Shown here piece by piece: positions 11,755-28,895 of a stretch of 64,000 bases of DNA. The notes below the pieces were generated by a model. That model had not been told where the DNA came from. It saw only the letters and a list, made by a program, of their open reading frames with translations, and made no database searches. Where the stretch lies: contig NZ_CP084061.1 in assembly GCF_020215665.1 (NCBI RefSeq), positions 4,803,001-4,867,000 on the forward strand, in the 5' to 3' direction. The position numbers and the translations under genes are program-made. How positions within the stretch are numbered: position 1 is the stretch's first letter; the number at the start of each line of letters is the position of its first letter. Source of the DNA: Blautia parvula (GTDB lineage Bacteria > Bacillota > Clostridia > Lachnospirales > Lachnospiraceae).

Positions 11755-11810
11755 GGGAATATAAAAAATATTGGCAAATTATGCCCGTAAAAGGAAAGGC
11801 TGAAAATAAA

Positions 11811-14082: not shown

Positions 14083-14532
14083 ATGAACAAAGAAGAGGGT
14101 TTAAATATAAATATATCGGCGCCTAACCTGATTAGTGTCTGTGTTGATACCAGTGACCGGGGCGAGTTTTCCGGGCGTCTATACCAGTGCTACAGCGAAG
14201 AGCCATGGTGCTTTGAAAATGTGGTGCAGCTGCTGCATCTCATGGATAAGCTCTATGACTGCATCAGCTACCCCCAGGCTTCCACAGAGAGCCGCAGTTT
14301 TATAAAAAGAGATAAAGAACCAATACTCAAATTACAGAAGAAAATACCTCAGGAAACCATTCTAAAGCAAAAAGGCAGTGTCGCAACCTTTGCCATATAT
14401 GTCCAATACAGGCAGAATGCTACGTGGCAGGGTGATGTACTCTGGATGGAAAGAGGGATAAAACAGCATTTTTACAGTGCATTAGAGCTGATCAAACTCA
14501 TAGACAGTGCACTTGGAGAATATGAAATCTGA
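14083..14532 (+). CDS. ATWQG-module protein, two-module form
   Basis: A 149-aa protein of unknown family. Its last 50 residues (101-146) contain QNATWQGDVLW (111-121), a short linker and HFYSALELIKLIDSAL (129-144). This module recurs in the proteins at 14745 and 28349. Residues 16-62 (FSGRLYQCYSEE, FENVVQLLHLMDKL) have the same pattern G-x-LY/LW ... F-4x-L-x-L-x-D and look like a diverged first copy. No signal peptide: cytosolic. ATG 14083 is preferred because GGAGAG (14069-14074) is eight bases upstream. It lies 37 bp after the BTAD gene and probably shares its transcript, ending at the terminator at 14541. It may act with the regulator, for example as a sensor or anti-activator (inference). 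Confidence 0.75.
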   Translation: MNKEEGLNINISAPNLISVCVDTSDRGEFSGRLYQCYSEEPWCFENVVQLLHLMDKLYDCISYPQASTESRSFIKRDKEPILKLQKKIPQETILKQKGSVATFAIYVQYRQNATWQGDVLWMERGIKQHFYSALELIKLIDSALGEYEI

Positions 14533-14540
14533 CACAATTG

Positions 14541-14569
14541 TGCCGCCGGTAATCCGGCGGTATTTTTTT
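14541..14569 (+). terminator. Rho-independent terminator
   Basis: CCGCCGG (14543-14549), a TAAT loop and CCGGCGG (14554-14560) are followed by a seven-T run (14563-14569). It separates the regulator unit from the fibre operon promoter. Confidence 0.9.
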
Positions 14570-14607: not shown

Positions 14608-14690
14608 CATTACACAAGAAGAAACATTGAAAAATATTTTGAAAAAAGTAATGGATGTAATGCTTTGCGTAATGCTCCTTTCAGTACAAT
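14608..14690 (+). promoter_or_regulatory. Fibre operon promoter with triple GTAATG direct repeat
   Basis: Three direct repeats GTAATG start at 14648, 14657 and 14669 (intervals 9 and 12). The last ends exactly 10 bp before the -10 box TACAAT (14685-14690); no -35 hexamer is present, so an activator is needed. An inverted copy CATTAC lies at 14608-14613, 34 bp upstream of the first repeat across an A-rich spacer. The same arrangement is found at 28155-28238. The BTAD regulator at 12784 is the obvious candidate to bind it. Confidence 0.8.
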
Positions 14691-14744
14691 AAGAACAAAG
14701 TTAAGCAAGAGTCGAAAAAATAACCCAAAGGAGGCGAGAATGTT

Positions 14745-14954
14745 GTGAGTGGCAAAACCATTAAGAAAGATAAAGGAACTTTTATAGTAAAGGTTCATGA
14801 ATGTCAGAATGCCACATGGCAGGGCAGTGTCCTGTGGGTAGAAGAACAGCAGGAGCAATATTTTCGCAGTGCATTGGAGTTATTGAAACTGATAGACGGA
14901 GCAATATCCGGAATAGAAGAAAAAATAGTAGAAGGAGGAAGCCATGAAAAGTAA
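14745..14954 (+). CDS. ATWQG-module small protein
   Basis: A 69-aa protein made of one module: GTFIVKVHECQNATWQGSVLW followed after a short gap by YFRSALELLKLIDGAI. No signal peptide. The start is GTG 14745 with AGGAGG ten bases upstream; the ATG at 14740 reads M-L-stop and cannot be used. First gene of the fibre operon, its end overlapping the adhesin start by 11 bp. Being the first product of an operon for exported proteins while itself cytosolic suggests a regulatory or chaperone role (inference). Same module in the proteins at 14083 and 28349. Confidence 0.8.
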   Translation: MSGKTIKKDKGTFIVKVHECQNATWQGSVLWVEEQQEQYFRSALELLKLIDGAISGIEEKIVEGGSHEK

Positions 14955-17900
14955 TATAAAGAAAAGAGTATTAGCAGTTGTACTTTGCATGGTCCTGATG
15001 CTGAGTACTGGCATATCTACTATGGCAGATGGTGAGGTAGCAGCAGGAACTCCCGCACCGGAGAGCGGAGCCAGTCAGGAGCCTGCAGCAGCAAGTGTTG
15101 AGGGAGAAGCAGTTGAAGGAGAAACAGTTGAAGGAGAACAGACACCTGCAGAACAATCTACGGAAACACAGGAAGAGACACCCACTGAACCCAGCGCAGC
15201 AGAAAGCAAAGACGAACCGGCTGCAGACATAAACAGCGTATCTGGTGTAACAGAGCTGGTCGGCAGTAATGGAATTCAGGATGAAGCATCTGAACAGGAA
15301 ACAGATTTGACAGAACAGGAACCTGAACCTGAAGTTGAAATCGTATCAGAGGCAACAGAATTAAAACAAGAGTTCACAGATGAAGCAGGAAATGTTACAC
15401 AGCGTGTAATTGCAAATATACCGGAAGGTGCATTTCAGGCAAACGCTTCTGAAATAACCATGGAAGTTAATTATCTGGACGAAGCTGCAGAAAATCACGT
15501 AAAAGAACTGATGACAGCAGCACTTCCGGAGAACGAAATCCTTGGTGATTACATACTTTATGATATTAAGTTTAAAGTAAACGGAGAAGTAACAGAACCT
15601 CAGAAAGCAATTGCTATTACATTTGAAGGCAGCGGACTTCATATCGAAGACACAAAGAAAGCAAATGTTTTCTACCTCGATCCGGCTGACCCGGAAGTGC
15701 AGGATGATAAGGATGAAATCGTAGAGATCACTCAGAAGAGTGAAATGATTGAAAACCTTCAGAATGCAGGACAGAGCATTGAGAATATTGATGAGTATGA
15801 TCTGTCTGAGATTTCTGTAAAGGAAGATGGGACAGCAGATCAGATTCTGATGGAGGGAAGGATTTCTACAGTTTATGGTTGTTATGTAGAAAATATTAAA
15901 CCAGAAGAAATCACAGAACCGGAAGAAAATGAAAATGTAGAAAACGTAGAGAAGGTAGAAGCGTTATTCTATGAAGATGAAGCTGTAACAGTAACAGTAA
16001 CTGCCGAAAAAGAAGGGGCCATTCCGGAGAATTCAAAACTTCAGGTTATACCTATCTCAAAGACGGATAAAGAAACTGAAGCGCAGTATGAAGAAGTTCA
16101 GAATCAGCTTGATAAAAAAGCTGAGAATGAAGAATATGATATCGCAGGCTTTCTGGCATACGACATTAGTTTTGTAAACGCTGATGGTGAAGAAATAGAA
16201 CCTAACAGTCAAGTGAAAGTAACGATGGAATATAAAAATGATGCTATTCCGGAAGAAGTTAAAAAAGATGATAACCTTGATGTGACCGTTATGCACCTGG
16301 AAGAGAATGAAAATGGCAGTATAAAAGAGGTTGTTGATATAGCGGCTGAAAATGAAAAGGGGGCCATAATAGAAACTACTGATGATGCGAAGATAAAGAA
16401 AGCGGAGTTTGAAACGGATAGTTTTTCTGCATTTATAATAACTTGGCGTACCAGTAGTGGAACAAAAAAAATAAGTGTTAAAATTATTGATGAAACGGGA
16501 TATGAGATTGATGTAGACGAAGATTGTGCTGCATTAGATGGAATTTCGTTAAATTCATACAGCAATGAATTTTTAATGAAAAATATAACGGCATATGGTT
16601 CTGCAAGTCAATTTTATGAAATTAGAGATACTAGAGGACAAAAATATATTTTTAAAACGGCAATAAATGATTGGAACTTTGGAAAAAGTAATGGATTTCC
16701 AAATGGTGGAAGTGAAGTAGTTGGATTAAAGTACGAAGGTTATCAGGTTAAGTGGAAAAGGGCAGGGGAAAGTGGCTATAGAAACCACGATGATAGAGAT
16801 GCTTTTTACTTTATTTATGCTAAAGAAGCTGCACCAATTCAGAAACTAGAAACAGTAGATACCAGGGCGGAAAATATAAACCTTTCTTTGTACAACTACA
16901 ATAGTAAAATTATTAACAATCCGTTAGTAGAGTATGGGTTTAATTTTCATTCAGGATCAAGTGCTGTAGATTCTCCGAACGGATATTCTTATAATAATGA
17001 TAAATATACAAATAGTTCCAATCAAGGAGTGCTTCAAGGGATAGTTAAGCGTAACTTACAGAAAAATAATCTTGTTTTAAATCATAGAAATAATCCAGAC
17101 ATGGGCTTTTTATTTGGAAGTACAAATAATGAGGCTGTAAGAAAATATGAGAATTTGGATGGCTTATTTCAAAAAGATGATAGCGGCTATTTCTATTACG
17201 ACAGTTTGAAGAATGCAGCTGTCCTAAATGGTGATAAAGTTGATGTTTATGATGGGACTGTAAGTTCGGAAAAATTTAAATATGGTAATTTTTTACCGTT
17301 TAATAATCAGTATCTAACTAATAATGCAACAAACGGACTAAACAAGATTAATAGCAAAGATGCCGACATGTGGTTTGGTATGAACGTGGGAATGAGCTTT
17401 TACCAGCCAAAAGATGGAAGAATCAATAACCAGGATATGGTGTTTGAATTTAGGGGAGATGATGATGTATGGGTATTTGTCGATGGGATGCTTGTATTAG
17501 ATATTGGAGGTATTCATGGTAAAAAAAGTGGCTCAATCAATTTTAGAACAGGAGTAGTAGAGGTTGAGGATCAGAAGTCCACTACTCTAGCAAATTGTTT
17601 TAGGGCTGCATATAAAGAATTAAATTTAACAGATACACAGATTGCTGCTAAGTTGAATACATTATTCAATAAAGTAAATGGCAGTTATACAACATTTAAA
17701 AACTACAGTTCTCATGATTTTAAATTTTTCTATATGGAAAGAGGCGGCGGAGCTGCAAACTGTAAAATTAAGTTTAATATGCCTAGAATACCAGAAGGCT
17801 CAGTTATGGTTACAAAAGAAGTCATTAATGATAACGATGAGTCGGTTGATTATTCTGCAGATATTGATTTTAAATTTAATATCAGAAAGAACGATACTGT

Positions 17901-20070
17901 TTTAGCAAACAAAACTTATATGCTTTATGAGAATGATGAAAAAACAGGAGAAGGGACCACAGATGCAGAAGGTAATTTCACATTAAAGCATGGACAGTCA
18001 GCAGTATTTGGAGATTTTCTGGCAACTGATAATTATGAGGTTAAAGAATTAGGTGCATATTTAGATGGGTATGAAGTATCTTATAATGGTGAAATATTAG
18101 TAAAACATACAGAATCAGAAGGTGAAACGACGATTCAATCTGCAACAACAGGGATTTTGAAGGTTGATGAAACATCAAGTGTAGTATTCAGAAATAAGGT
18201 TACGGATACTGCGAAGTTATCAATATCAAAATCGTTGGCTGCTGATAGTGATGAGTTAGTGGGTAAAAGTTTTCCGATTTCTGTAAAAATACAGGGTGAG
18301 GTATATACAGGCTCCTACAGTGTTAACGGAATCCGATATACTACAAATGATGGAATAATAGCTGTTAAAGGCGGTGAAGTGGCACAGATAACAGGGCTTC
18401 CATATGGAACGTCATTTGAAGTTGAAGAAAGATTAGATGGATCTTATATTCCTTCATATAGTATTTCAGGAGAAGCATATGATAAAGTCTTACCAGAGTA
18501 TGATAAAGATGGAATATTACTAAATAATGTGACTTCGGCATCAGGGAAACTTGCAGGAGATAGTTTAGTTAGTATTGAAAACCGTGAAATACCCATCGGA
18601 ACAGGAACAACTTCTGTCAAAGTTATAAAAAAATGGGAGAATTCAGCGCAATATGAAATCCCTGAATATGTTGACGTAACTTTATATGAAGATGTAAATG
18701 CGAATGGTCAGTATGACGAAGGTACTGATATTCCGGTTCAGGGAATGGAAACCAAGCGGTTAAGCGAATCACTTAATAACTGGACAGACGGTTGGGATAA
18801 TCTTCCGGCAGATACTGATTATGTAGTGAAAGAGACATTTCCTGAGGGGTTTGAATTATTTAGAACTACTATTACTAATTCTATTACAGCAGTAGAGCCT
18901 ATTGGAGAGAAGAATTCTCCAAACAGCAGTACAGTTTTCAATTTAGGAAAGAACAATATATTACTTGTAAAAGAGACTGCTAATGCTGGATACTTTTTAT
19001 GGACACCACGTGATTTGGGCTTAACAAAGACAGAGATAGATAAGATAGTTAATATGATTAAACCCTATATTACAGGTGCTGGTAATTTGGGCGATAATGT
19101 CACATATAAATACGGTGACAGCAACAGTGGTGGAATATCATTAGGAAAAAATGATAATGGTTGGACATTAAGTTTTGCAGCTACAAGTACCTGGTCCTTG
19201 TTCTGGAATTTTAGTTATACCAGATTAGAAGAAATTCAACTGGATAATACAATAGACGATAATTTAAAAATCCAGATTCCTGTAGACAAAGAGTGGCAGG
19301 GAGATTCTGAATTAGAGCGTCCAGATAGCATTACAATTCAATTGTATAAAAATGGAGTTGAAGAAGGAGAGCCCGTAGAAATAACCAGAAAAATGTTATG
19401 GAAATATACTTATGAAAATCTGGATTATTATTCTTTTGACTCAGAAACCAATCGTTATATTAAGAATGAGTATGCTATAAAAGAGATAAAGGTTGGCGAT
19501 GATGAAATTGATGAAAACGGGCAAGCGGGCGATTATCAGTCTATTGTCAAAAGAAATGAGGACAACAGTTTTACAATAAGTAATATTAAACAATGGCAAA
19601 TAGTTAAAGTCAGTGACAAATCTGATGATTTAACTCTTCAGGGTGCGATATTTAAGCTTAGTCCTAGTGGAGATTTTGATAAGCCTTTCTATGGCAAATC
19701 AGATAATAATGGTGTGGTTACCTGGTATAAGGACTTAGAATTTAATAAGCCTTTAGATGGCATTTTGCCAGATGGAGTATATACCTTGACTGAGGAAAAA
19801 GCTCCTAGTGGATATGTTAAGAGTGATATATCCTGGAGCATTATAATCAGTAATGGCAGACCAACATCTGTTGAAAGTTCAAAAGGTAAAGTAGAAGAGA
19901 ACAGAAAAGATGGAAAACTGACATATTATTTTGAAAATACTGCTGTATATGCGCTTCCAAGCGCAGGTGGTAATGGGATTTATGGGTATTTGATTAGTGG
20001 TTTACTGCTAATGATGGCAGCAACGCTAATCTTATATAAAAACAAACGCAGGGAGGTGCTGAAGAGTTAA
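14944..20070 (+). CDS. Large LPXTG-like surface adhesin with fibro-slime domain (pilus tip candidate)
   Basis: A 1708-aa exported protein. Signal peptide 1-28; Pro/Glu/Thr-rich linker to about 120; two related beta domains (about 125-300 and 335-490); a fibro-slime/PA14-like domain around 640-960 with FRGDDDVWVFVDG (about 836-848) and DIGGIH; a DUF7601-like domain (about 955-1075); Cna-B-type domains in the last 500 residues, including KVIKKWEN and GAIFKLSP modules. The C-terminus has sorting signal LPSAG at 1671-1675, a hydrophobic span and RREVLKS. Size and position before the major pilin fit a tip adhesin joined by the class C sortases at 21652 and 22555. GGAGG lies just upstream of ATG 14944. 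The segment from about 16.4 kb on is more AT-rich than neighbouring genes. Confidence 0.85.
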   Translation: MKSNIKKRVLAVVLCMVLMLSTGISTMADGEVAAGTPAPESGASQEPAAASVEGEAVEGETVEGEQTPAEQSTETQEETPTEPSAAESKDEPAADINSVSGVTELVGSNGIQDEASEQETDLTEQEPEPEVEIVSEATELKQEFTDEAGNVTQRVIANIPEGAFQANASEITMEVNYLDEAAENHVKELMTAALPENEILGDYILYDIKFKVNGEVTEPQKAIAITFEGSGLHIEDTKKANVFYLDPADPEVQDDKDEIVEITQKSEMIENLQNAGQSIENIDEYDLSEISVKEDGTADQILMEGRISTVYGCYVENIKPEEITEPEENENVENVEKVEALFYEDEAVTVTVTAEKEGAIPENSKLQVIPISKTDKETEAQYEEVQNQLDKKAENEEYDIAGFLAYDISFVNADGEEIEPNSQVKVTMEYKNDAIPEEVKKDDNLDVTVMHLEENENGSIKEVVDIAAENEKGAIIETTDDAKIKKAEFETDSFSAFIITWRTSSGTKKISVKIIDETGYEIDVDEDCAALDGISLNSYSNEFLMKNITAYGSASQFYEIRDTRGQKYIFKTAINDWNFGKSNGFPNGGSEVVGLKYEGYQVKWKRAGESGYRNHDDRDAFYFIYAKEAAPIQKLETVDTRAENINLSLYNYNSKIINNPLVEYGFNFHSGSSAVDSPNGYSYNNDKYTNSSNQGVLQGIVKRNLQKNNLVLNHRNNPDMGFLFGSTNNEAVRKYENLDGLFQKDDSGYFYYDSLKNAAVLNGDKVDVYDGTVSSEKFKYGNFLPFNNQYLTNNATNGLNKINSKDADMWFGMNVGMSFYQPKDGRINNQDMVFEFRGDDDVWVFVDGMLVLDIGGIHGKKSGSINFRTGVVEVEDQKSTTLANCFRAAYKELNLTDTQIAAKLNTLFNKVNGSYTTFKNYSSHDFKFFYMERGGGAANCKIKFNMPRIPEGSVMVTKEVINDNDESVDYSADIDFKFNIRKNDTVLANKTYMLYENDEKTGEGTTDAEGNFTLKHGQSAVFGDFLATDNYEVKELGAYLDGYEVSYNGEILVKHTESEGETTIQSATTGILKVDETSSVVFRNKVTDTAKLSISKSLAADSDELVGKSFPISVKIQGEVYTGSYSVNGIRYTTNDGIIAVKGGEVAQITGLPYGTSFEVEERLDGSYIPSYSISGEAYDKVLPEYDKDGILLNNVTSASGKLAGDSLVSIENREIPIGTGTTSVKVIKKWENSAQYEIPEYVDVTLYEDVNANGQYDEGTDIPVQGMETKRLSESLNNWTDGWDNLPADTDYVVKETFPEGFELFRTTITNSITAVEPIGEKNSPNSSTVFNLGKNNILLVKETANAGYFLWTPRDLGLTKTEIDKIVNMIKPYITGAGNLGDNVTYKYGDSNSGGISLGKNDNGWTLSFAATSTWSLFWNFSYTRLEEIQLDNTIDDNLKIQIPVDKEWQGDSELERPDSITIQLYKNGVEEGEPVEITRKMLWKYTYENLDYYSFDSETNRYIKNEYAIKEIKVGDDEIDENGQAGDYQSIVKRNEDNSFTISNIKQWQIVKVSDKSDDLTLQGAIFKLSPSGDFDKPFYGKSDNNGVVTWYKDLEFNKPLDGILPDGVYTLTEEKAPSGYVKSDISWSIIISNGRPTSVESSKGKVEENRKDGKLTYYFENTAVYALPSAGGNGIYGYLISGLLLMMAATLILYKNKRREVLKS

Positions 20071-20074
20071 GAAA

Positions 20075-20110
20075 TGAAGAAGCTTTTCAGCGGTCCCGGT
20101 ACCGCGAAAA
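20075..20110 (+). other. Short hairpin between adhesin and major pilin
   Basis: GCGGT and ACCGC around a CCCGGT loop (near 20089-20104) form a small stem in the 111-bp gap. Too weak and without T-tract for a terminator; it might mark an RNA processing site that separates pilin message from adhesin message. Confidence 0.3.
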
Positions 20111-20181
20111 TATAACGTATAAAAACAATAATACGGAAATTCAAAATGGGCAGAAGCCAAAAAAGAAAAGGAGACAAAATT

Positions 20182-21540
20182 ATGAAAAAAATTAGAAGGA
20201 TTTTTGCAGTGTTATTATCACTGGCAATGGTGCTTGGAATGAGCATGACAACATTTGCAGCAGGTAGTTCAGAGTCACCGTTTAATAGTAATATTACTAT
20301 TACTAATTTAGCTGTAGATGATAACACAACAGTAAATGTGTTTAAAGCAGTTTATTTAAATGAAGATGAAAATGAATGGGTAGTTGCAGACTGGGCAAAA
20401 GATTACATAACATTAGATGCAACGAATAATAAATACACAATTACGAATCCGGCAGGTCTTGGAACTAATGTTCCCGAAAAACCAGATTATACAGAGAAAA
20501 CAAATGAAACTAGTATAACATTTGAAGGGGTCCCAGTAGGTGCTTACGTAATCATTGCGAGTGGAAACAAAGCAACATATACAACAATGGTAGCAAATAC
20601 GTATAAAGAAGATGCAACATATATGGAATCGAAAGATGTTTCTCTTATTGCAAAACTGGATACTTATAAGGTGGATAAATCTGCGAATGATAACTTTGTT
20701 GCCCGTGGTGAAGAAGTAATATTTACAATAACTACAGTATTTCCTAACTTTTCAGAGAATCCAGACTCTGTAAAGAACACTTATAAAATTGTGGATACAT
20801 CTACAGATTTAAAGATTTTGGGTGTAGAAACAGCGACAGTTGGTGGAGAAAATGTTCTGGAGGAGATAACGGCCTCATATACAGATGAAACTAAGGGAGA
20901 ATATACAATTGATTTGAGTGACCTGATTGGTACGGAAAATATAAATTCTGGTAAACCAGTTATAATCGCTTATAAGGCAGAGGTATTGACGGATGCAGGA
21001 TATCAGAACGCAGTAAATACATTTAAAAATGATACAGTAACAGGTAAAGATGACGAAAAAGGTTATACTGGTGATGTTACACTTACAAAGTATGCAGAAG
21101 ATAAAAAAACTGCTTTATCAGGGGCTGAGTTTAAAGTTGGTAAAAAAGATGGTGAGACAGTCGGTGAGGCATTATATTTTGTAGAAACAAGTAAGGGTAA
21201 CTATAAACTTGCAAAAGCAACAGAAGCAGGAGCAACACAGACAGTAGTTGTTGCAGACGATGGAACCGTGAAATTAACAGGATTAGATGAAGGCACATAT
21301 CACTTCATTGAGACAAAAGCACCAGAAGGATACTCTATCAATAAAGACGGTGTAGATGCAACAATTGAAAAGAATGACGAAGCACATGTTTCTATTAAAG
21401 CAGAGCTGACAGATACCAAACTTTCCTCCCTCCCATCCACAGGTGGAATCGGTACAACAATCTTCACAATCGGCGGATGCCTCATCATGATCGTAGCAGC
21501 AGGCCTGTTCTTCGCAAGCCGCAGAAAATCTGCAAAATAA
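20182..21540 (+). CDS. Major pilin, SpaH/EbpB-like, LPSTG-anchored
   Basis: A 452-aa exported protein. Signal peptide 1-28 (ends TTFAAG), N-terminal pilin domain, a second domain with isopeptide-type Lys and Asp/Glu candidates, then a Cna-B domain with the E-box YHFIETKAPEGYS (Glu377), sorting signal LPSTG at 417-421, membrane span and RRKSAK tail. This order is that of shaft pilins of Gram-positive sortase pili. The linking lysine is probably in the LDTYKVDK segment that follows the first domain; a canonical YPK motif is not present. ATG 20182 has AAAAGGAGA nine bases upstream; the longer frame from 20146 has no ribosome site. A strong hairpin follows. Confidence 0.88.
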   Translation: MKKIRRIFAVLLSLAMVLGMSMTTFAAGSSESPFNSNITITNLAVDDNTTVNVFKAVYLNEDENEWVVADWAKDYITLDATNNKYTITNPAGLGTNVPEKPDYTEKTNETSITFEGVPVGAYVIIASGNKATYTTMVANTYKEDATYMESKDVSLIAKLDTYKVDKSANDNFVARGEEVIFTITTVFPNFSENPDSVKNTYKIVDTSTDLKILGVETATVGGENVLEEITASYTDETKGEYTIDLSDLIGTENINSGKPVIIAYKAEVLTDAGYQNAVNTFKNDTVTGKDDEKGYTGDVTLTKYAEDKKTALSGAEFKVGKKDGETVGEALYFVETSKGNYKLAKATEAGATQTVVVADDGTVKLTGLDEGTYHFIETKAPEGYSINKDGVDATIEKNDEAHVSIKAELTDTKLSSLPSTGGIGTTIFTIGGCLIMIVAAGLFFASRRKSAK

Positions 21541-21543
21541 TTA

Positions 21544-21567
21544 ATGATAATCAATTATAATTATCAT
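21544..21567 (+). other. AT-rich hairpin after major pilin
   Basis: ATGATAAT (21544-21551) and ATTATCAT (21560-21567) form an 8-bp stem four bases after the pilin stop codon. With the GC-rich hairpin at 21590 it makes a double 3' structure that may protect the pilin message. Confidence 0.5.
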
Positions 21568-21589
21568 CAACAATTCTAAGCAACAACTA

Positions 21590-21622
21590 AATGCCGGGGC
21601 GGTCGGCCCGCCCCGGCATTTT
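21590..21622 (+). terminator. Strong hairpin between pilin and sortase genes (attenuator-like)
   Basis: A perfect 13-bp GC-rich stem AATGCCGGGGCGG (21590-21602) and CCGCCCCGGCATT (21608-21620) with a 5-nt loop is followed by only two T. It lies within the operon, upstream of the sortase ribosome site. Likely partial terminator or 3'-end stabiliser that gives more pilin than sortase message. Confidence 0.75.
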
Positions 21623-21651
21623 AGAAAAATACAACAATAAGGAGAGTCCGG

Positions 21652-22554
21652 ATGAAAAAAAGATCGCACATAATCATTGTTTCCCTTCTGTTTTTAGCCG
21701 GTTTGTCCTTGCTGCTGTATCCCCTCGTATCCAATCAATGGAATAACTACAGACAGAGTAAACTGATCAGCAGTTATGAAGAAGTGGTAAATGAAAAAAG
21801 CGCAGCAGGTGAAATCGACTACAAAGCCGAGGCAGACCGCGCGACAGCTTATAACAACGCCCTTCTTCCCAGTATCCTCCCAGACTCCTTTGCCGTAGCA
21901 GAAGCATCCGAGGAGGAAGACGACGAATATATGTCTTGTCTTAACCTCTCCGGTAATGGTATGATGGGATATGTAGAAATTCCTAAAATCAACGTGAAAA
22001 TACCTGTATTTCACACCACGGATGATGAGGTGCTTCAGAAAGCAGCGGGCCATCTGGAAGGAAGTTCACTTCCCATTGGAGGTAAGAGCACACATTCTGT
22101 AATCTCTGCCCACAGAGGACTGCCAAGTGCAACACTGTTTACCGACCTGGACAAAATGAAAGAGGGGGATCACTTCCTTCTGTATATACTGGATGATATC
22201 CTCTGCTATGAAGTGGATAACGTTTCAGTGGTAGAACCCGAGGAGACCGATGGTCTGGCAGTGGAGGAAGGAGAAGATTTAGTTACCCTTCTTACCTGTA
22301 CCCCTTACGGAGTGAACAGCCAGAGACTTCTTGTACGCGGACACCGTGTTCCTTATGAGGAGACAGAGATGGAAGAGACACCAACTTCCCTTCTGACCGG
22401 AGTAAGCATGCACACAAGCTATTTATTCTGGGTGATCGTAGGTCTGGCAGTGACAGCAGCCTTTGTTATATTCCTCTACCTCCGCGAGAAGAAATTAAGG
22501 ACAAAGCTTAATTCTGATGAAAAACAGGAGAATGAGGAGCTGACGGACAAATAA
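21652..22554 (+). CDS. srtC: Class C sortase, first
   Basis: A 300-aa membrane enzyme that joins pilins through lysine to sorting-signal isopeptide bonds. N-terminal span at about 8-26, catalytic beta-barrel with His154 (SAHRG), Cys216 (TLLTCTPYGVN) and Arg229 (LLVRGHR), then a C-terminal span (about 262-280), the two-anchor topology of class C. The motif TCTPYGVN is class C specific. A lid-type DPW/DPF motif before the barrel is not evident. AAGGAG is at 21640-21645. The second sortase starts directly after its stop. Confidence 0.92.
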   Translation: MKKRSHIIIVSLLFLAGLSLLLYPLVSNQWNNYRQSKLISSYEEVVNEKSAAGEIDYKAEADRATAYNNALLPSILPDSFAVAEASEEEDDEYMSCLNLSGNGMMGYVEIPKINVKIPVFHTTDDEVLQKAAGHLEGSSLPIGGKSTHSVISAHRGLPSATLFTDLDKMKEGDHFLLYILDDILCYEVDNVSVVEPEETDGLAVEEGEDLVTLLTCTPYGVNSQRLLVRGHRVPYEETEMEETPTSLLTGVSMHTSYLFWVIVGLAVTAAFVIFLYLREKKLRTKLNSDEKQENEELTDK

Positions 22555-23427
22555 ATGAAGAGAAAAATTTCAACCATTCTGTTCGGATTATTATTTCTGG
22601 CAGGGTTTGGCATCCTGGTTTATCCAACCGTTTCCAACCAATGGAACACATACCGCCAGAGCAAGCTTATAAGCAGCTATGAAGAAGTGATCGGCGATAT
22701 GACGCCCGAAGATTTTACAAAAGAATGGGACGCCGCAAGAGCCTTTGATGCAGCTTTGACACAGAATAACCTGTACGGTGATGTATTCGGCGAAGACAAA
22801 GAAGAACTGCAGAACACAGAATACTGGAAAGTACTTAACGTTAACAAAGACGGCGTGATGGGATATCTTTCCATCCCCAAGATCAACATAAAGGTAGCCA
22901 TCTACCATGGCACCGGAGATGACGTTCTCCAGACAGGAGTAGGGCATCTCAACGGAACCAAATTACCGATCGGAGGCGAGAGTACACACAGTGTACTGGC
23001 AGCCCACAGAGGTCTTCCGAGCGCCAGGCTTTTTACAGATATTGACCAGTTAAAACGCGGAGATTTATTTTACATCCACGTGCTGGATGATACATTAGCT
23101 TATGAGGTCGACCAGATCCTCACTATGATAGACAAGGACGACAGGGAAACCCTGGACGGCGCAATGGCCATTGAAGAGGGCCAGGACTATGTAACATTGT
23201 TTACTTGCACTCCATACGGCGTCAACTCCCACAGACTTTTAGTCCGCGGGCATCGGGTACCGTATACCGGAGAGGAAGAGATAGAGAGCACACCGGTTCA
23301 GTCCATGCTGAAAGCAGTACAGAATTATTACATGTTATATCTGATACTTGGATTGTCGGTGACATTACTGGTGATACTTTTAATGAAATTCCTGTTCAAG
23401 CCACGGAAAAAAAATAAGAAGTCATAA
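22555..23427 (+). CDS. srtC: Class C sortase, second
   Basis: A 290-aa paralogue of the previous gene, with the same N-terminal sequence pattern (NQWNxYRQSKLISSYEEV), catalytic His151, Cys218 and Arg231, and N- and C-terminal spans. Its ATG is adjacent to the preceding TAA and has only a poorly placed GGAG, so it is probably translated by coupling. Two class C sortases beside one shaft pilin suggest a division of labour: polymerising the shaft and adding the adhesin or accessory pilin. Confidence 0.92.
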   Translation: MKRKISTILFGLLFLAGFGILVYPTVSNQWNTYRQSKLISSYEEVIGDMTPEDFTKEWDAARAFDAALTQNNLYGDVFGEDKEELQNTEYWKVLNVNKDGVMGYLSIPKINIKVAIYHGTGDDVLQTGVGHLNGTKLPIGGESTHSVLAAHRGLPSARLFTDIDQLKRGDLFYIHVLDDTLAYEVDQILTMIDKDDRETLDGAMAIEEGQDYVTLFTCTPYGVNSHRLLVRGHRVPYTGEEEIESTPVQSMLKAVQNYYMLYLILGLSVTLLVILLMKFLFKPRKKNKKS

Positions 23428-23467
23428 AGTGGTCAATAGGGAATGAGTTTTCAGAGGAGGGTAAAAT

Positions 23468-24454
23468 GTGAAGATGAAAAAGACAATAAAAAAAGGAAGT
23501 GCATTGGCTCTGGCTCTGGCATTGATGCTTTCCGCAACGATTCTGCCTAAGGTTTATGCAGCCTTTGGTATTGATACAGAGAAAAGCTGTTCCCTGACCT
23601 TTGAACTGGACGGACAGTATGAAGAGCTGAACAGTCTGACCATTCCCATTCATTTATACAGAGTGGCAGATGTAGAGGAAAACGGTGAATACAGAGTATT
23701 GGCCGGATATGAAGATTTGGATCTTGCATCCATAAGCAATAAGACAACAGCCGAAGACTGGGAGAAGCTTGCAGGAAAAGCATCCGAACTGGTAGAAAAG
23801 CTTGCAGCCGCCCCGACTGCTGAGGTACAGATGCAGAAACCTGAGGGCAGCGATAAATCCAAAGGCGTTGCCGGAGACCTCTCCACAGGTATGTATCTGG
23901 TGGTTGCGGAATCTGTACAGTCACCGGAGTATACATATGATTTTACCCCGTATCTGATCTCCCTGCCGAACAACTATTACAGCGAGACAGAGGATGACAC
24001 CTGGGTATATGATGTGACCACCGGATTAAAACCGGCACAGACAGAGCGCTATGGGGATTTAGTCATTGAAAAGACCCTTACTGCATATAACGCCACTTTA
24101 GGCGGAGCAGATTTCATTTTCCGGGTAGAAGCAGAGAGGGATTATGAAGTAGTATACAGCAACGTGGTATCCATCTCCTTTGACGCACCGGGAACAAAAA
24201 GTGTAAAGATAGAACATATTCCGGCAGGTGCTTCTGTTACGGTAACAGAGGTATACAGCGGAGCAAGTTATGAACTGACTTCCGACGGGACACAGCAGAC
24301 AGTGATCACTGCAGATGAATCGGTTGGTGTTTCATTTGAAAATACCTATGACCATCGAAACAACGGCGGCAGCAGTGTAGTCAACCGGTTTACTTACAAT
24401 GAAGGTGACTGGGATTGGGAACAGCAGAAAGATAGTACAGGTGAGCAGGAGTAA
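23468..24454 (+). CDS. Accessory pilin-like exported protein, DUF7601-type domain
   Basis: A 328-aa protein with signal peptide 1-34 (ends KVYAAFG), an N-terminal beta domain with IPIHLYRVADVEENG as in Cna-B/SpaA pilins, and a second domain DLVIEKTLTAYNATLGGADFIF ending in SFENTYDHRNNGG that resembles DUF7601. It lacks a sorting signal and any C-terminal membrane span, so it is either secreted, held by a covalent link at its N-terminal side, or bound non-covalently. The start is GTG 23468 with GGAGG seven bases upstream; the ATG at 23466 is followed at once by TGA. Confidence 0.78.
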   Translation: MKMKKTIKKGSALALALALMLSATILPKVYAAFGIDTEKSCSLTFELDGQYEELNSLTIPIHLYRVADVEENGEYRVLAGYEDLDLASISNKTTAEDWEKLAGKASELVEKLAAAPTAEVQMQKPEGSDKSKGVAGDLSTGMYLVVAESVQSPEYTYDFTPYLISLPNNYYSETEDDTWVYDVTTGLKPAQTERYGDLVIEKTLTAYNATLGGADFIFRVEAERDYEVVYSNVVSISFDAPGTKSVKIEHIPAGASVTVTEVYSGASYELTSDGTQQTVITADESVGVSFENTYDHRNNGGSSVVNRFTYNEGDWDWEQQKDSTGEQE

Positions 24455-24468
24455 AGGAGGATGGAGCG

Positions 24469-24969
24469 ATGAAGAAGAAATTCAATAAGAAAAGCCTTTG
24501 TCTGGCAGCAGCAGCTCTTGCCCTCACCGCAGGTATATCCGTGAACAGCGCCATGGCGTACTTCACCACCTATACAACGGCAGCAGGTGATGTGACCATC
24601 AGTCTTGGTTCCACCGTGACGATTCCGGAGGAGAAGGTCAGCGACTGGACAAAGCATATTGTGATCAAAAATACAGGAGATTATGAGTGCTATGTCCGTG
24701 TGAAAGTATTTGCAGGAGAAAAATATCAGGACGGACTTGTATATCAGGGCAGCCAGAAGTGGTCCCCCGGAGAAGAAGATTACTACTATTACAGTGATAT
24801 TGTTCCGGCAGGCGGTGAAACGGAGGAACTCCAGGTTAAGATTGATTCCAAAGACAGTGAGGAGGAATTTAATATTATCGTGGCCCAGGAGTGTACCCCG
24901 GTATTATATGACGATGAAGGCAAACCCTATGCAGACTGGAATGCAAAACAAGAGGAGGTTGGTGAATAA
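24469..24969 (+). CDS. TasA/camelysin-like protein with SipW-type signal, first
   Basis: A 166-aa exported protein. The signal peptide is SipW-type: positively charged start, hydrophobic core AAAALALTAG and cleavage around AMA/YFTTYTTAAGD, with the typical Y-F/T-D/T-Y segment right after. The mature part has the beta-sandwich features of TasA/CalY proteins: VTISLGSTVTI, KHIVIKNTGDYECYVRVKV and a late SDIVPAGGETEEL. In B. subtilis TasA forms matrix fibres after processing by SipW, and a SipW homologue is at 27589. The 1-bp overlap with the next gene shows co-translation. Confidence 0.82.
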   Translation: MKKKFNKKSLCLAAAALALTAGISVNSAMAYFTTYTTAAGDVTISLGSTVTIPEEKVSDWTKHIVIKNTGDYECYVRVKVFAGEKYQDGLVYQGSQKWSPGEEDYYYYSDIVPAGGETEELQVKIDSKDSEEEFNIIVAQECTPVLYDDEGKPYADWNAKQEEVGE

Positions 24970-25727
24970 TGAAAAAGAAGAAAAAATCCTTTTCTGTGAA
25001 ACCAGTTATCCTTCTCTCAGCAGCAGCCCTGTTATTGCTGGGCAGTACAGTCGGAAGTGCACGTGCGGCACTTACCTATTACAGTGAAAACTATTCTGTG
25101 CAGATGAGCACATCAAACATTGGTGTAAGCCTCATAGAAAATGGTGACAAAATCAGCTACAGGGACTATAATGAAAACGATGAGTGGAATGAGAGCACAG
25201 GAACTCTTTTATCCGATCTGAAGAAAGAGAAGCTGGTACTGGGCAAGACATATGATGAGAAGCTCAGCGTTACGAACAGCGGCTCCATAGACAGCTATGT
25301 GAGGGTTATCCTCTATAAGAGCTGGTCAAAAGGCGAAGGAGAAAATGCAGTCAAAGACACAACGCTTTCCCCCGCACTGATCGACCTGAACCTGACCGGC
25401 AACGGCTGGACCGAAGACAAAAATGCATCCACAAAAGAACGTACGGTTCTGTACTATAACAGCATTCTTCCGGCAGGAGAAACCACTCCCGAGTTCGCAG
25501 ACACACTGCGGATTGACCCGGCGCTTGGCAAGAAGGTCACAGAACATGAGACAATTGATGAAAATGGTTACAAGACCATCACCACGGTTTACGATTATGA
25601 CGGTTACAGTTTCCAGGTGGAAGCCGAAGTGGATGCTGTTCAGACACATAATGCACAGGATGCCATCAAGAGTGCCTGGGGTGTAGATGTAGATGTTGCA
25701 GCAAACGGAGATATCAGCTTACGATAG
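24969..25727 (+). CDS. TasA/camelysin-like protein, second
   Basis: A 252-aa exported protein of the same family as its neighbour: SipW-type signal ending GSARA/ALTYYSENYS, NIGVSLIENGDKISY, the NSGSIDSYVRVILYKSW strand pair, and SILPAGETTPEFADTL. It carries an insert of about 60 residues relative to the first. Its start codon overlaps the stop of the previous gene. It may be the main fibre subunit or a TapA-like partner; the sequence does not decide. Confidence 0.8.
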   Translation: MKKKKKSFSVKPVILLSAAALLLLGSTVGSARAALTYYSENYSVQMSTSNIGVSLIENGDKISYRDYNENDEWNESTGTLLSDLKKEKLVLGKTYDEKLSVTNSGSIDSYVRVILYKSWSKGEGENAVKDTTLSPALIDLNLTGNGWTEDKNASTKERTVLYYNSILPAGETTPEFADTLRIDPALGKKVTEHETIDENGYKTITTVYDYDGYSFQVEAEVDAVQTHNAQDAIKSAWGVDVDVAANGDISLR

Positions 25728-25739
25728 GAGGTACAGAAT

Positions 25740-26531
25740 ATGAAAAAGAAAATTTTGTGCCTTATCATGGCAGCAGTCATGACCGTAGGCACCGCGGCAA
25801 CCGCATATGCAGAAGATTTTAAAAGTGATAAAGACTGGCAGGTTGATTTTGACGGAGACAAGATGAACAGTAATTTCAGTTCTAAGGAAATGGCTGAGGA
25901 GATTTATGGAATCCTCCCCGGCGATACCATGGAACTGCAGGTTAAGATAAAGAATTCCGGAGAGGAACAGACCGACTGGTATATGTCCAATGAAGTTCTG
26001 AAAAGTCTGGAAGAGGGAAGCAAAGCAGAAGGCGGAGCTTACACATATGTTTTGACCTATTATGATCCATCCGGTGCGGAGGCAGTCCTCTATGACAGCG
26101 AAACCGTAGGCGGCGAGGGCACGTCCTATGTTGGCAAAGGTCTGGAACAAGCCACGGATTCCCTGGATGATTTCTTCTATCTGGATAGGCTGGATGCAGG
26201 AAAAGCCGGTTCTGTTCACCTGAAGGTTATCTTAGACGGTGAGACACAGGGCAATGGCTATCAGGATACACTGGCTCGTCTGCAGATGAATTTCGCAGTA
26301 GAGAAAGTAGCTCCTTCCACGGTAACCGTAAAAGGTAAAGACACTGTGGTAAGAAAGACCGTTACAGGCGAATCCAATACAGTGAAGAAGACGATCACCC
26401 GTCCTAAGACAGGAGATACCACCAATATCCTCCTTTTCAGTACAGCGGCATTAGTCAGCGGATTGGTACTGCTGCTTCTGGGAATCGCAGCCATGAAAAA
26501 ACGCCATGAGAAAGGGGAGCTGAAGTCATGA
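25740..26531 (+). CDS. Cell-wall-anchored protein with PKTGD sorting motif
   Basis: A 263-aa protein: signal peptide 1-25 (ends AYAEDF), globular TasA-like beta domain with ILPGDTMELQVKIKNSGEEQTDWYMSN, a Thr/Val-rich stalk (about 200-225), then RPKTGDT, a hydrophobic span and MKKRHEK tail. The motif is a one-residue variant of LPXTG (R for L), probably served by a housekeeping sortase elsewhere. Its NSGEEQTDWY segment resembles that of the TasA-like proteins just upstream, so it may anchor them to the wall (inference). Stop overlaps next start (ATGA). Confidence 0.78.
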   Translation: MKKKILCLIMAAVMTVGTAATAYAEDFKSDKDWQVDFDGDKMNSNFSSKEMAEEIYGILPGDTMELQVKIKNSGEEQTDWYMSNEVLKSLEEGSKAEGGAYTYVLTYYDPSGAEAVLYDSETVGGEGTSYVGKGLEQATDSLDDFFYLDRLDAGKAGSVHLKVILDGETQGNGYQDTLARLQMNFAVEKVAPSTVTVKGKDTVVRKTVTGESNTVKKTITRPKTGDTTNILLFSTAALVSGLVLLLLGIAAMKKRHEKGELKS

Positions 26532-27574
26532 AGAAGTTGAAAATGATTCTGACATCTTTGCTTACTGTCTGCATGCTCTTTGGCTCATCTGTGATCAGCG
26601 TTTTTGCGGCAGATGGAGAATACACCTATACAGCAACCTTCTATGCAGGCAATCAGGGTACATTTTCCGGGATTGACGGATTATCTGTAGTAAGTACAGG
26701 GACACCGGTGATTGATGCACAGGGTGACAGGGTTGTGGTAAGCGGCCTGAAATTAGGTGATAAAGTATCCTTTGATGTACAGAACGGTGATGTTGCACTG
26801 GGAGATTCCAGTAAATATTATGTAAAAGGTGTCCGGATAAGCGGACGTGACAATAATTCCCTTGAGACCTCCGGATTTTATGTAAATGGTGACAGAGATT
26901 TTGTTGTCGCTTACGGAATTCAGGGCGACATGGTTGGTTATACTGTTAATTATCATGATGAAGAAGGAAACGAACTGGCACCGAGCCGTACCTATTACGG
27001 CAATGTGGGAGACAAACCGGTAGTGGCTTACCTGTATGTGGAAGGTTATACACCGCAGGCTCTGGCACTGACCAAGACACTCTCCTCCAATGAAGCACAG
27101 AACGTATTTACTTTCGTATATACACCTGTTACAACAGAGACAGTAACCGTACCCGGCGAGACAACAACCGTCACAACCGTTATACCCGGAACCACCACAA
27201 CAGAGACAACTGTTGTAGAGACCCCGGCAGCAGGTACTCCGGCAGGCACAACAGGAACCACCGGAACGGAGGGAACAGCCGGTACAGAAGGCACCGCAGG
27301 TGAAGCCGGAACAGCCGGTACTGAGGGAACCGAAGGTACGGCAGGAGCCGGAACAGACGAGGGAACTCAGGTTATAGAGCCGAATGAAGTGCCGCAGGGC
27401 AACCAGGAAGTTGTCGATTTAGATGAGGATGAAACACCTCTGGCTGACAATCCGGAAGAGACCAAAGAGAAAGTAAAGAAGGGCCTTCCCCTTGCAGCCG
27501 GCATCGCGATCGGAGTCGGAGCAGTTGCAGCTCTTTCCGCATTAGCAGTATTTCTGATTAGACGACGCAGATGA
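26528..27574 (+). CDS. MucBP-like surface protein with Gly-Thr-rich stalk
   Basis: A 348-aa protein: signal peptide 1-27, an N-terminal beta domain, a MucBP-like repeat (about 135-200, YTVNYHDEEGNELAPSRTYYG), a Thr/Val-rich segment, a low-complexity GTEGTAG-type stalk (about 236-280), an acidic segment with ETPLADNPEE, then a C-terminal span and RRRR. No LPXTG; the ETPLA-like motif before the span recurs in clostridial surface proteins and might be an alternative sorting site. Probably adhesive. It is followed 14 bp later by the SipW gene. Confidence 0.75.
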   Translation: MKKLKMILTSLLTVCMLFGSSVISVFAADGEYTYTATFYAGNQGTFSGIDGLSVVSTGTPVIDAQGDRVVVSGLKLGDKVSFDVQNGDVALGDSSKYYVKGVRISGRDNNSLETSGFYVNGDRDFVVAYGIQGDMVGYTVNYHDEEGNELAPSRTYYGNVGDKPVVAYLYVEGYTPQALALTKTLSSNEAQNVFTFVYTPVTTETVTVPGETTTVTTVIPGTTTTETTVVETPAAGTPAGTTGTTGTEGTAGTEGTAGEAGTAGTEGTEGTAGAGTDEGTQVIEPNEVPQGNQEVVDLDEDETPLADNPEETKEKVKKGLPLAAGIAIGVGAVAALSALAVFLIRRRR

Positions 27575-27588
27575 AAGGATAACTTGAT

Positions 27589-28113
27589 TTGAGCAGAAAG
27601 AAGAAAAAGGATAGGAAAAGCCCAGTGTCTGCAATTTGCAGTGCACTGGGCACTGTTTTATTAGTAAGTCTGGTGCTTGTCTGTCTTCCCATTACAGCAA
27701 CCAGGCTTTTTGGCTATGATGCATATTCCGTGGTAAGCGGAAGCATGGAGCCGGCAATCCCCACAGGAAGCCTGGTGTATGTACAGGAGACAGCACCGGA
27801 GGACATGAAGGAAGATGATGTGATCGCGTTCTATGGAGCAAAGGATTCCAATGCCATTATCACCCACAGGGTAGTGGAGAACAAAGTGGTCATGGGTGAA
27901 TTTATCACCAAAGGCGATGCCAATAAGACGGAGGATATGAACGCAGTCCCCTACAGCAACTTTATAGGGAAAGTGGTATATACCATCCCTGTTTTGGGAA
28001 GGGTCGCCCAGGCCCTGACAAGTACAATGGGAAAGATCATTGCAGGCGGTGTGATTGCGGCAGCACTGGTTTTGGAAATCATAGCATCTGTTATCCGCAG
28101 ACGCGAATCATAA
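27589..28113 (+). CDS. sipW: SipW-type signal peptidase I
   Basis: A 174-aa membrane protease with two spans (about 14-36 and 148-168). Catalytic Ser52 lies in VVSGSMEP and the partner is His93 in ITHRV rather than Lys, the ER/SipW subclass. In Bacilli SipW removes the signals of TasA and TapA; here two TasA-like substrates lie 2-3 kb upstream in the same operon. The start is TTG 27589 with AAAGGA nine bases before; no ATG fits. It is the last gene of the long operon. Confidence 0.9.
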   Translation: MSRKKKKDRKSPVSAICSALGTVLLVSLVLVCLPITATRLFGYDAYSVVSGSMEPAIPTGSLVYVQETAPEDMKEDDVIAFYGAKDSNAIITHRVVENKVVMGEFITKGDANKTEDMNAVPYSNFIGKVVYTIPVLGRVAQALTSTMGKIIAGGVIAAALVLEIIASVIRRRES

Positions 28114-28154
28114 CGGTTTCCGTGGTGTTTTTTGTCCTGTCTGTTATTTTATAC

Positions 28155-28238
28155 CATTACAAAAAACTCCTTTATGAAAATATGATTCAAATAAAGTAAT
28201 GCGTGTAATGCTTTTGGTAATGCCGCTTAAAGTATAAT
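28155..28238 (+). promoter_or_regulatory. Second promoter with triple GTAATG direct repeat
   Basis: GTAATG starts at 28196, 28205 and 28217, the same 9- and 12-bp intervals as at the fibre operon promoter, and the last repeat again ends 10 bp before the -10 box TATAAT (28233-28238). The upstream inverted CATTAC (28155-28160) is 35 bp before the first repeat. No -35 hexamer. Conservation of all spacings while the intervening bases differ strongly suggests one activator for both promoters. Confidence 0.82.
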
Positions 28239-28550: not shown

Positions 28551-28895
28551 ATGGGACATAAAAGATTAGAAAAGGAAATCTTGCCTCTCATATTATGCAT
28601 AGCGATTGCCCTTGGAAATATTACTATTGCTCATGCAGGACAGGACGCGCTCTCGGCTGATTCTGTAAATCGGCAGACGGAAGAGGCAGCCCCTTTGAAA
28701 GACCGGGAGCAGACCGGTCAGGCAGAAGAAGACAGCACCCGAACAGTCATCATCAATGGGGAAGAGGTTCCATTGAGTGAAGGGGAGAATATAACGAAAA
28801 ATGACAATACAGGCCTGATTTATGTAGGCCTTTTTGCAGGCATCCTGGTCCTTGCTGGTGCCGGGGAATATGTAGTCAGAAAACGTATCAAGTAA
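28551..28895 (+). CDS. Small exported membrane protein
   Basis: A 114-aa protein with a signal peptide (1-29, ends ITIAHAG), a polar acidic middle part (30-84) including TRTVIINGEEVPLSEGE, one C-terminal span (about 86-105) and a basic end VVRKRIK. No sorting motif. Ribosome site AAAGGGG. Second and last gene of the unit driven by the 28196 promoter; the terminator at 28928 follows. Function unknown; context suggests a part of the fibre system. Confidence 0.7.
   Translation: MGHKRLEKEILPLILCIAIALGNITIAHAGQDALSADSVNRQTEEAAPLKDREQTGQAEEDSTRTVIINGEEVPLSEGENITKNDNTGLIYVGLFAGILVLAGAGEYVVRKRIK

Follow-up and report, generated by a model that had tools for sequence, protein, structure and literature searches.

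Two repeat-bearing promoters and a candidate SARP-type activator of surface-fibre genes in Blautia parvula

The window considered here is a stretch of 64,000 nucleotides from the 6.25-Mb chromosome of Blautia parvula (G000:C1:4803001-4867000, where G000 is the window genome, other G numbers are comparison genomes and L numbers are stretches), and it holds two promoters that each carry three direct GTAATG repeats. The first lies downstream of a BTAD regulator gene and a two-domain ATWQG gene, from which a terminator-like hairpin separates it, and precedes a small ATWQG gene followed by genes for LPXTG surface proteins, sortases and a SipW-like signal peptidase; the second precedes another small ATWQG gene and a gene for a protein with a signal-peptide-like start (Table 1). 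The conserved unit of these promoters is the downstream pair of heptamers (TGTAATG), 12 base pairs (bp) apart and ending 10 bp before the -10 box. We consider it likely that the neighbouring SARP-type (BTAD) activator, which itself probably senses cyclic di-GMP (c-di-GMP), drives both promoters and thereby genes for fibres and matrix.

The promoters and their conserved core

The initial annotation had placed the GTAATG repeats at 14648, 14657 and 14669 and again at 28196, 28205 and 28217, with starts 9 and 12 bp apart, the last repeat ending 10 bp before a -10 box (TACAAT and TATAAT, respectively) and an inverted CATTAC further up, 34 and 35 bp from the first repeat, and all of these coordinates hold, as does the position of the BTAD gene just upstream of promoter 1. 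The -35 element, described as missing, is indeed not apparent, with no sigma-70 -35/-10 pair detected at either promoter; since shuffled sequence gives only 0.6 and 1.2 such pairs, this absence by itself says little. The intervening bases had been said to differ, which is not fully so: GTAATGCTTT is common to both promoters, and the two promoters alone therefore provide no independent evidence for conserved spacing. Bare GTAATG is not enriched in the window (35 observed, 29.9 expected). The spaced triple is enriched there (2 exact copies against 0.09 expected at up to three mismatches), and the whole genome holds 2 exact triples, none with one or two mismatches and 7 more at three, the reversed triple giving 10 at up to three mismatches.

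Within the same-genus set (20 genomes, G000 counted in), G008 and G009 encode BTAD proteins 94% and 89% identical to that of the window, and in both a site with 9/12 spacing precedes the orthologous first ATWQG gene and one with 8/12 spacing the second; G004 carries the variant ATAATG-N3-GTAATG-N6-GTAATG. Among relatives the first repeat is found 8, 9, 10, 19 or 20 bp up (as variant first repeats at 10, 19 and 20) and the 12-bp pair is constant, so that the pair and the -10 box are firm and the first repeat is mobile. The geometry first proposed as fixed is thus conserved in its 12-bp interval and 10-bp gap and variable in its 9-bp interval, and the site is retained before orthologous genes in other species and genera, as a shared regulon would lead one to expect. 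For genome-wide searching, the use originally foreseen for the motif, the key to use is the 12-bp (or 11-bp) pair plus -10 box and not the triple. The bare triple with a first gap of 2 or 3 was rejected as a search key after giving 64 matches in 60 stretches across 84,980 species, 1 of them with a -10 box; these matches lie mostly in unrelated groups, and records very near the window genome may be left out. At two mismatches the triple matches in 28 of 61 relatives, outside G000, G004, G008 and G009 mostly as scattered singles.

A second conserved element is the inverted pair CATTAC-N34/35-KTAATG. Pairs of the form YRTTAC-N-KTAATG peak at separations of 35 bp (16) and 34 bp (7), and 17 of these 23 lie at promoters under study, the remaining 6 being chance-like or ambiguous; lesser peaks at 43, 45 and 55 bp presumably stem from CATTAC paired with the remaining repeats. 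The distance between CATTAC and the mobile upstream repeat stays at 34-35 bp while the two are displaced together, with respect to the core, by about one turn of the helix, and CRTTAC occurs within 120 bp upstream of 15 of 30 sites, compared with 1.4 in shuffles. The separation of about four helical turns may reflect a second DNA-bound dimer or a loop. The ATWQG promoters of G012, G014, G016 and G019 keep the inverted pair without the core pair. Same-genus ATWQG promoters on L062, L063, L064, L066 and L069 show YRTTAC-N35-KTAATG, no core pair and a downstream palindrome of the type CACATAAT-N-ATTATGT, perhaps another operator. An inverted operator was also sought in the TGTGAC class and discarded, GTCACA-N-TGTGAC having no preferred spacing.

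A wider promoter code and its association with BTAD genes

A survey of hundreds of related genomes reveals a promoter code of TGTRAY direct repeats, either 11 bp apart with a gap of 9 bp to the -10 box or 12 bp apart with a gap of 10 bp, and its sites lie near BTAD regulator genes, often just before genes of small ATWQG or secreted proteins. When 60 distinct promoters of stand-alone ATWQG genes were compared without assuming a motif, an exact 6-mer was repeated at 12 bp in 27 of them and in 0-9 at the other intervals from 6 to 39 bp; of these 27 promoters, 18 contain words of the GTRA/TAAYG type and the other 9 resemble background, one being a simple repeat. Promoters without GTAATGCTTT have a repeat at 12 bp in 16/45 cases and at 11 bp in 7/45. 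The half-sites read off are TGTAATG, TGTAACG and TGTGATA at 12 bp and TGTGACY and TGTAACC at 11 bp, with TGTRAY as the general form. Across 152 loci (718 kb) there are 17 TGTRAY pairs at 11 bp and 19 at 12 bp, with 0-6 elsewhere; a later set of 40 BTAD-gene stretches (444 kb), fetched after the rule had been formed and in several cases from genomes with other stretches already seen, has 13 and 5, respectively, with 0-4 elsewhere. Requiring a -10 box leaves, in the fetched loci, 27 GTRAY pairs at 11 bp and 34 at 12 bp, with 0-3 at the other intervals from 7 to 18 bp.

Interval and -10 gap move together, 25 of 46 sites being 11/9, 17 being 12/10 and 4 crossed; among these sites with a gap of 9 or 10, the gap is 9 in 25/26 of the 11-bp class and 10 in 17/20 of the 12-bp class, and four more sites have a gap of 8 or 11. 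With the -10 box set by convention at -12 to -7, the heptamers occupy -28 to -22 and -39 to -33 in the 11-bp class, and -29 to -23 and -41 to -35 in the 12-bp class. Two controls were set aside as unfair: the hexamer GTTRYA (10 at gap 6, compared with 2 for the other control) includes TGTAAC in reverse complement, so that true sites are counted again, and the "unrelated loci" (14 at gap 3, 7 at gap 6) had been chosen for holding a spaced GTAATG triple.

Family-wide scans covered one set of 397 genomes for the motif GTAATGCTTTNNGTAATG (at most one mismatch), the ATWQG domain (found in 72 genomes) and the BTAD protein (matched at E 1e-10 in 119). By hand count, at least 9 of the 108 listed GTAATGCTTTNNGTAATG rows lie 84-156 bp before a same-strand ATWQG domain, where about 0.002 would be expected. 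Nine rows are exact: 5 precede ATWQG genes, others in G266 are located near contig ends (two) or before a secreted protein gene (one), and G144:C1:2609944 looks like chance. The pattern GTAAYG-N6-GTAAYG-N10-TANNNT has 28 exact matches in 17 of the 397 genomes, and the co-occurrence with BTAD genes that the initial annotation had proposed as a test is borne out: 13 of the 17 site genomes have a BTAD match, compared with 119/397 overall (Fisher 7e-5), and 10 of the 17 are among the 26/397 genomes with the closest BTAD proteins (3e-9), a class set at about E 1e-95 or better with a cut-off chosen after the table had been inspected. All five genomes with more than one exact match hold BTAD. In our own reading, 15 of the 24 matches in BTAD genomes stand before ATWQG genes or genes with signal-peptide-like starts and 1 before polysaccharide genes, the rest being found at the ends of contigs, ahead of genes of other kinds or within open frames (G031, G091, G123); the four matches in non-BTAD genomes lie inside long open frames in G036 and G398 and outside them in G188 and G399.

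The window genome contains a third exact site, GTAATG-N6-GTAATG-N10-TAGAAT, outside the window on the minus strand (G000:C1:2786447-2786480; L350, L373), with TTAATG upstream and CATTAC not present. About 40 bp downstream of this site comes the likely ATG of a putative exopolysaccharide-type operon, whose genes encode Alg14, glycosyltransferase 28, sugar transferase and polysaccharide-synthesis domains.

Site type also follows the type of regulator. When the nearest site within 3 kb was assigned to each of 33 BTAD genes, recognition helices of type K-N went with TGTGAC (7/7), K-T with TGTAAC (5/5) and R-V with GTAAT/GTAAC at 12 bp (14/15). On a BTAD tree built without the winged helix, interval class requires 4 changes against 11.4 when shuffled, a value that 0 of 500 shuffles reached. 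Where a genome has two BTAD types, each gene keeps its match: G295 has LKT beside TGTAACC at 11 bp and LRA beside AGTAACG at 12 bp, and G435 has LRVT beside GTAATG at 12 bp and LKN beside TGTGAC at 11 bp. In the alignment the variable window residue 79 falls on AfsR T88, and R83, which is constant in most proteins (R in 51/60 and 65/81 BTAD proteins), on AfsR R92; an excerpt of the paper on the AfsR complex has T88 and R92 touching bases, R92 a conserved T (PMC10936776). Contrary to this rule, L153 (G069) has TGTGACC repeats with the 11-bp interval some 160 bp away from an LRV-type BTAD gene, and these may be controlled by another BTAD of that genome.

The regulator, the ATWQG proteins and the genes around the promoters

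The window protein has the SARP order of an OmpR-type winged helix followed by a BTAD domain, the latter matching Pfam at E 5.3e-15, with Trans_reg_C at E 1e-4 (below cut-off) and a sequence match to AfsR at E 3.2e-5. An AlphaFold model built with 60 sequences has a predicted local distance difference test score (pLDDT) of 90, and Foldseek with this model returns EmbR (E 8.6e-12), AfsR and GGDEF proteins. Both sequence and fold place the C-terminal domain in the GGDEF family: the domain matches Pfam GGDEF at E 0.01 or better in 34 of 46 relatives, and a profile of the 46 matches solved GGDEF structures with a best E of 4e-9. The GG(D/E)EF motif of an active diguanylate cyclase is present in 0/60 and 0/81 BTAD proteins (an alignment of 60, with a mean column identity of 37%, and a non-redundant set of 81 selected for near full-length match), its position reading SPTQF and the like, with Q358 invariant. 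The I-site, by contrast with the lost motif, is kept as RxxD with further arginines: R346 is found in 80, D349 in 81, R377 in 80 and R300 in 78 of the 81 proteins, and R346, D349 and R377 are invariant in the 60-protein alignment. The mutual spacing of R300, R346, D349 and R377 equals that of the PleD I-site residues R313, R359, D362 and R390, as these are given in an excerpt of PMC7288161, the correspondence being one of equal spacing. An arginine at +18, equivalent to R377 at a fixed offset in unaligned sequence, occurs in 2 of 23 canonical GGDEF domains, which were found by pattern in 30 loci of the window genome (42 GGDEF matches in all). With the catalytic motif lost and the I-site residues kept, the C-terminal domain is probably a c-di-GMP sensor. 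The protein on L301 (G314) is the sole one of the 81 with R346 replaced (E), and the BTAD matches of G274, G197, G389 and G351 have apparent stop codons inside the matched stretches or frames.

The ATWQG domain comprises 47 residues, with W-Q-G invariant in the alignments made; it is found singly or, in the gene that follows BTAD, as a pseudo-duplicate. The two-domain model (pLDDT 90.7) is bbba-bbba; the fold search returned no solved structure at E below 0.001, the profile search no match better than E 0.027, and Pfam no consistent family. In G237 (L138/L171) the BTAD domain, the C-terminal domain and an ATWQG domain share one open frame of about 612 codons, a fusion which suggests that BTAD and ATWQG act together, and the ATWQG proteins are probably partners or modulators of the BTAD protein. 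The contig of L204 (G144:C3) carries two oppositely oriented BTAD-ATWQG module stretches, in which the ATWQG frames look disturbed.

The surface fibres proposed in the initial annotation fit the genes between the promoters, where LPXTG/SpaA pilin-like proteins, sortases, genes with a weak likeness to SipW-dependent matrix proteins and a SipW-like peptidase make up a set typical of a sortase-built or SipW-type fibre operon, the TIGR04090 and SipW model matches both being below cut-off. The gene of the 114-amino acid (aa) protein is probably the last of unit 2, ahead of an ilvD-like gene. A type IV pilin-like gene (N_methyl + PilJ_C) lies at 11781-12614, directly upstream of the BTAD gene. An RNA element was considered and dropped: the window contains neither a tRNA nor an Rfam match that reaches the gathering score.

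Table 1. Features of the two promoters and neighbouring genes, in window coordinates
Feature	Position	Strand	Remarks
BTAD regulator gene, 420 aa	12784..14046	+	winged helix 38-103, BTAD 116-250, degenerate GGDEF ~270-400 (RxxD 346-349, R377)
Two-domain ATWQG gene	14083..14532	+	directly downstream of BTAD gene; open reading frame listed from 14074
Intrinsic-terminator-like hairpin	14540..14563	+	separates BTAD unit from promoter 1
Inverted GTAATG (CATTAC on +)	14608..14613	-	N34 from repeat 1 of promoter 1
Promoter 1 upstream (third) half-site GTAATG	14648..14653	+	distance to core varies among species
Promoter 1 distal core heptamer TGTAATG	14656..14662	+	
Promoter 1 proximal core heptamer CGTAATG	14668..14674	+	12 bp on from distal
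Promoter 1 -10 box TACAAT	14685..14690	+	
Small ATWQG gene 1, 69 aa	14745..14954	+	GTG start
Large LPXTG surface protein	14944..20070	+	Cna_B, SpaA, fibro-slime domain
LPXTG SpaA-type pilin-like protein	20146..21540	+	
Two sortase genes	21652..23427	+	21652-22554, 22555-23427
Protein with DUF5979	23468..24454	+	
Two genes weakly like SipW-dependent biofilm matrix proteins	24469..25727	+	TIGR04090 E 2.6e-5, 1.3e-6, below cut-off
Two further probable surface-protein genes	25740..27574	+	one with MucBP/collagen-like stretches
SipW-like signal peptidase I	27589..28113	+	SipW model below cut-off; sigpep_I_arch above
Inverted GTAATG (CATTAC on +)	28155..28160	-	N35 from repeat 1 of promoter 2
Promoter 2 upstream (third) half-site GTAATG	28196..28201	+	
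Promoter 2 distal core heptamer TGTAATG	28204..28210	+	
Promoter 2 proximal core heptamer GGTAATG	28216..28222	+	12 bp on from distal
Promoter 2 -10 box TATAAT	28233..28238	+	
Small ATWQG gene 2, 57 aa	28349..28522	+	
114-aa protein	28551..28895	+	signal-peptide-like start, C-terminal hydrophobic segment, read from sequence

A proposed SARP-type regulon, its alternatives and its meaning

The mechanism that we propose would have two BTAD protomers side by side on the two core heptamers, 12 bp apart, the upstream protomer covering the place of the absent -35 element and its downstream partner adjoining the -10 box, with RNA polymerase being recruited. Unit 1, predicted to consist of the small ATWQG gene with the LPXTG/SpaA fibre, sortase and SipW-type matrix genes, would be switched on in this way, as would unit 2, with the second ATWQG gene and the small, presumably exported protein, and the third genomic site would add the exopolysaccharide operon to the regulon. 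Through its degenerate GGDEF domain, with c-di-GMP I-site residues on the same chain, the activator would probably couple fibre expression to c-di-GMP.

Streptomyces SARPs (AfsR with its afs box, ActII-ORF4, DnrI and PimR) resemble this system in their OmpR-type winged helix and BTAD fold and in heptamer repeats about one turn apart, the upstream one over a poor -35 and the proximal one near the -10 box, with three repeats at some sites. An excerpt of PMC10936776 gives SARP repeats as 11 or 22 bp apart with the 3' repeat 8 bp from the -10 box, and the afs box as a pair of 11-bp repeats that spans -40 to -19 and has its upstream member on the -35 element. A SARP-like layout had been suggested from the outset, and the sites studied here come within a base or two of this description, with a gap of 9 or 10 bp between heptamer and -10 box across the two classes and no -35/-10 pair detected at the window promoters; 27 sites in TGTGAC/TGTAACC relatives have the 11-bp interval itself. 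The Streptomyces proteins act on antibiotic genes and have no C-terminal domain or a NOD/TPR/LAL one, whereas here the setting is surface fibres in a distant host, the interval is 12 bp instead of 11, and the regulator carries a degenerate GGDEF domain and is accompanied by small ATWQG partner genes. PimR, a SARP-LAL regulator, belongs to the same comparison: in PMC5930380 the classical site is a heptamer plus 4 bp, the PimR optimum is three heptamers with 4-bp spacers, and half of the protein is described as guanylate-cyclase/LAL-like, not GGDEF, with other targets. EmbR of Mycobacterium tuberculosis shares the N-terminal architecture and is likewise a single-chain SARP with an extra C-terminal domain, but this domain is FHA in EmbR, according to an excerpt of PMC10936776, and GGDEF-like in the window protein.

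Conservation, co-occurrence, lineage tracking and geometry all support the initial proposal of a BTAD regulon, in which BTAD binding is a prediction. Several points weigh against it. The reversed control of the GTAAYG pair plus -10 box gives about 40 matches by hand count against the 28 observed, which means that the pattern itself is not in excess and that the informative features are solely where it stands and how it is distributed. Only about 18/60 ATWQG promoters have a clear 12-bp repeat of the GTRAY type, and motif-free 6-mer repeats with a -10 box in the 40 later stretches number 16 at 11 bp, 17 at 12, 13 at 9 and 10 at 15, so that the signal there rests on the TGTRAY word. The window core, at 12 bp and not the classical 11, makes the window site a variant. 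Exceptions to the pairing of helix and site are G069 (R-V helix with TGTGAC at 11 bp), G161 and G334 (11 bp with R-A/R-I helices), G123 (a weak site) and G090 (12 bp with gap 9), and the independent-pairs test of helix against interval has 2 pairs and no power, which leaves recognition helix and lineage inseparable. No core pair is listed for the close-BTAD genomes G012, G016, G137, G160 and G217, some of which have short contigs, nor for the 18 kb surrounding the window genome's second BTAD gene (L354). The close class owes its cut-off to inspection of the table, and selection of the 81 proteins by near full-length match means that chains without the C-terminal domain would be missed. Residues 270-400 of the window protein match Pfam GGDEF at E 0.001, below the Pfam cut-off, and RxxD occurs in 11/23 canonical GGDEF domains and is thus common in ordinary ones.

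This last observation bears on an alternative that we regard as a serious one, if not our preferred one: that the C-terminal GGDEF-like domain is a dimerization or partner-binding module, for ATWQG for example, with no c-di-GMP bound. Degenerate GGDEF domains can have other roles, the catalytic motif is lost in 81/81 proteins, and in the G237 fusion it is the C-terminal region that the ATWQG domain follows. Against this, R346, D349, R377 and R300 are retained with PleD spacing at the frequencies given above despite a mean column identity of 37%. A comparable case is that of PelD, in which the catalytic GGDEF motif is lost. PelD is counted among the I-site receptors in the part of PMC7288161 cited here. 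Such degenerate-GGDEF c-di-GMP receptors resemble the window protein in their RxxD I-site and biofilm-type outputs and differ in that the putative receptor domain here sits on a DNA-binding SARP.

An unlikely alternative is that the TGTRAY repeats serve another DNA-binding protein, such as an OmpR-family response regulator, the BTAD gene being merely a co-inherited neighbour. Winged helices of the OmpR/PhoB type generally recognize direct repeats spaced by about one turn, repeat type is not tied to the recognition helix independently of lineage, and G069 breaks the rule that links them. An excerpt of PMC10972967 also has one site of the SARP AfsR bound by the response regulator PhoP. The BTAD protein as reader is nevertheless favoured by the way repeat type and interval follow BTAD lineage, by the two-BTAD genomes G295 and G435, where repeat type matches the regulator beside it, by a geometry to the -10 box close to that of SARPs, and by the concentration of exact sites in close-BTAD genomes. 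That the second promoter is a paralogous copy of promoter and ATWQG gene, its geometry mere descent without function, is very improbable: GTAATGCTTT occurs in both promoters and both precede ATWQG genes, but the geometry is kept across genera with different spacers and heptamers (TGTAACG, TGTGATA, TGTGAC) and also before secreted-protein and polysaccharide genes other than ATWQG genes.

New here are the third site before an exopolysaccharide operon, the recurrent inverted pair and a degenerate GGDEF domain with I-site residues on BTAD proteins. The open-access papers searched yielded nothing on BTAD with Blautia or on degenerate GGDEF with BTAD and, among the papers listed for BTAD with Lachnospiraceae and judged by titles and abstract starts, nothing on this subject. 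A 2004 survey came up for the bacterial transcriptional activator domain together with GGDEF, and a review for Lachnospiraceae with SipW and TasA. We tentatively extend the BTAD reading to a widespread SARP class in this gut-bacterial family, in which a catalytically dead GGDEF domain might serve as a c-di-GMP receptor, with a lineage-matched 11/9 or 12/10 promoter code and dedicated ATWQG partners, and c-di-GMP might thus be coupled directly to fibres, matrix and exopolysaccharide.

SARPs are known as activators of antibiotic genes in actinomycetes, and the SARP-like code described here spans many genera of one family, attached to surface fibres, matrix proteins and exopolysaccharide and accompanied by a fused GGDEF-type domain. 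The promoter rule allows candidate members of the regulon to be found by sequence, and it has picked out the exopolysaccharide operon and several secreted-protein genes. If the c-di-GMP step is true, common gut bacteria would have a direct, testable path by which this messenger reaches their cell surface, and the system would illustrate how the geometry of SARP sites changes in step with the regulator.

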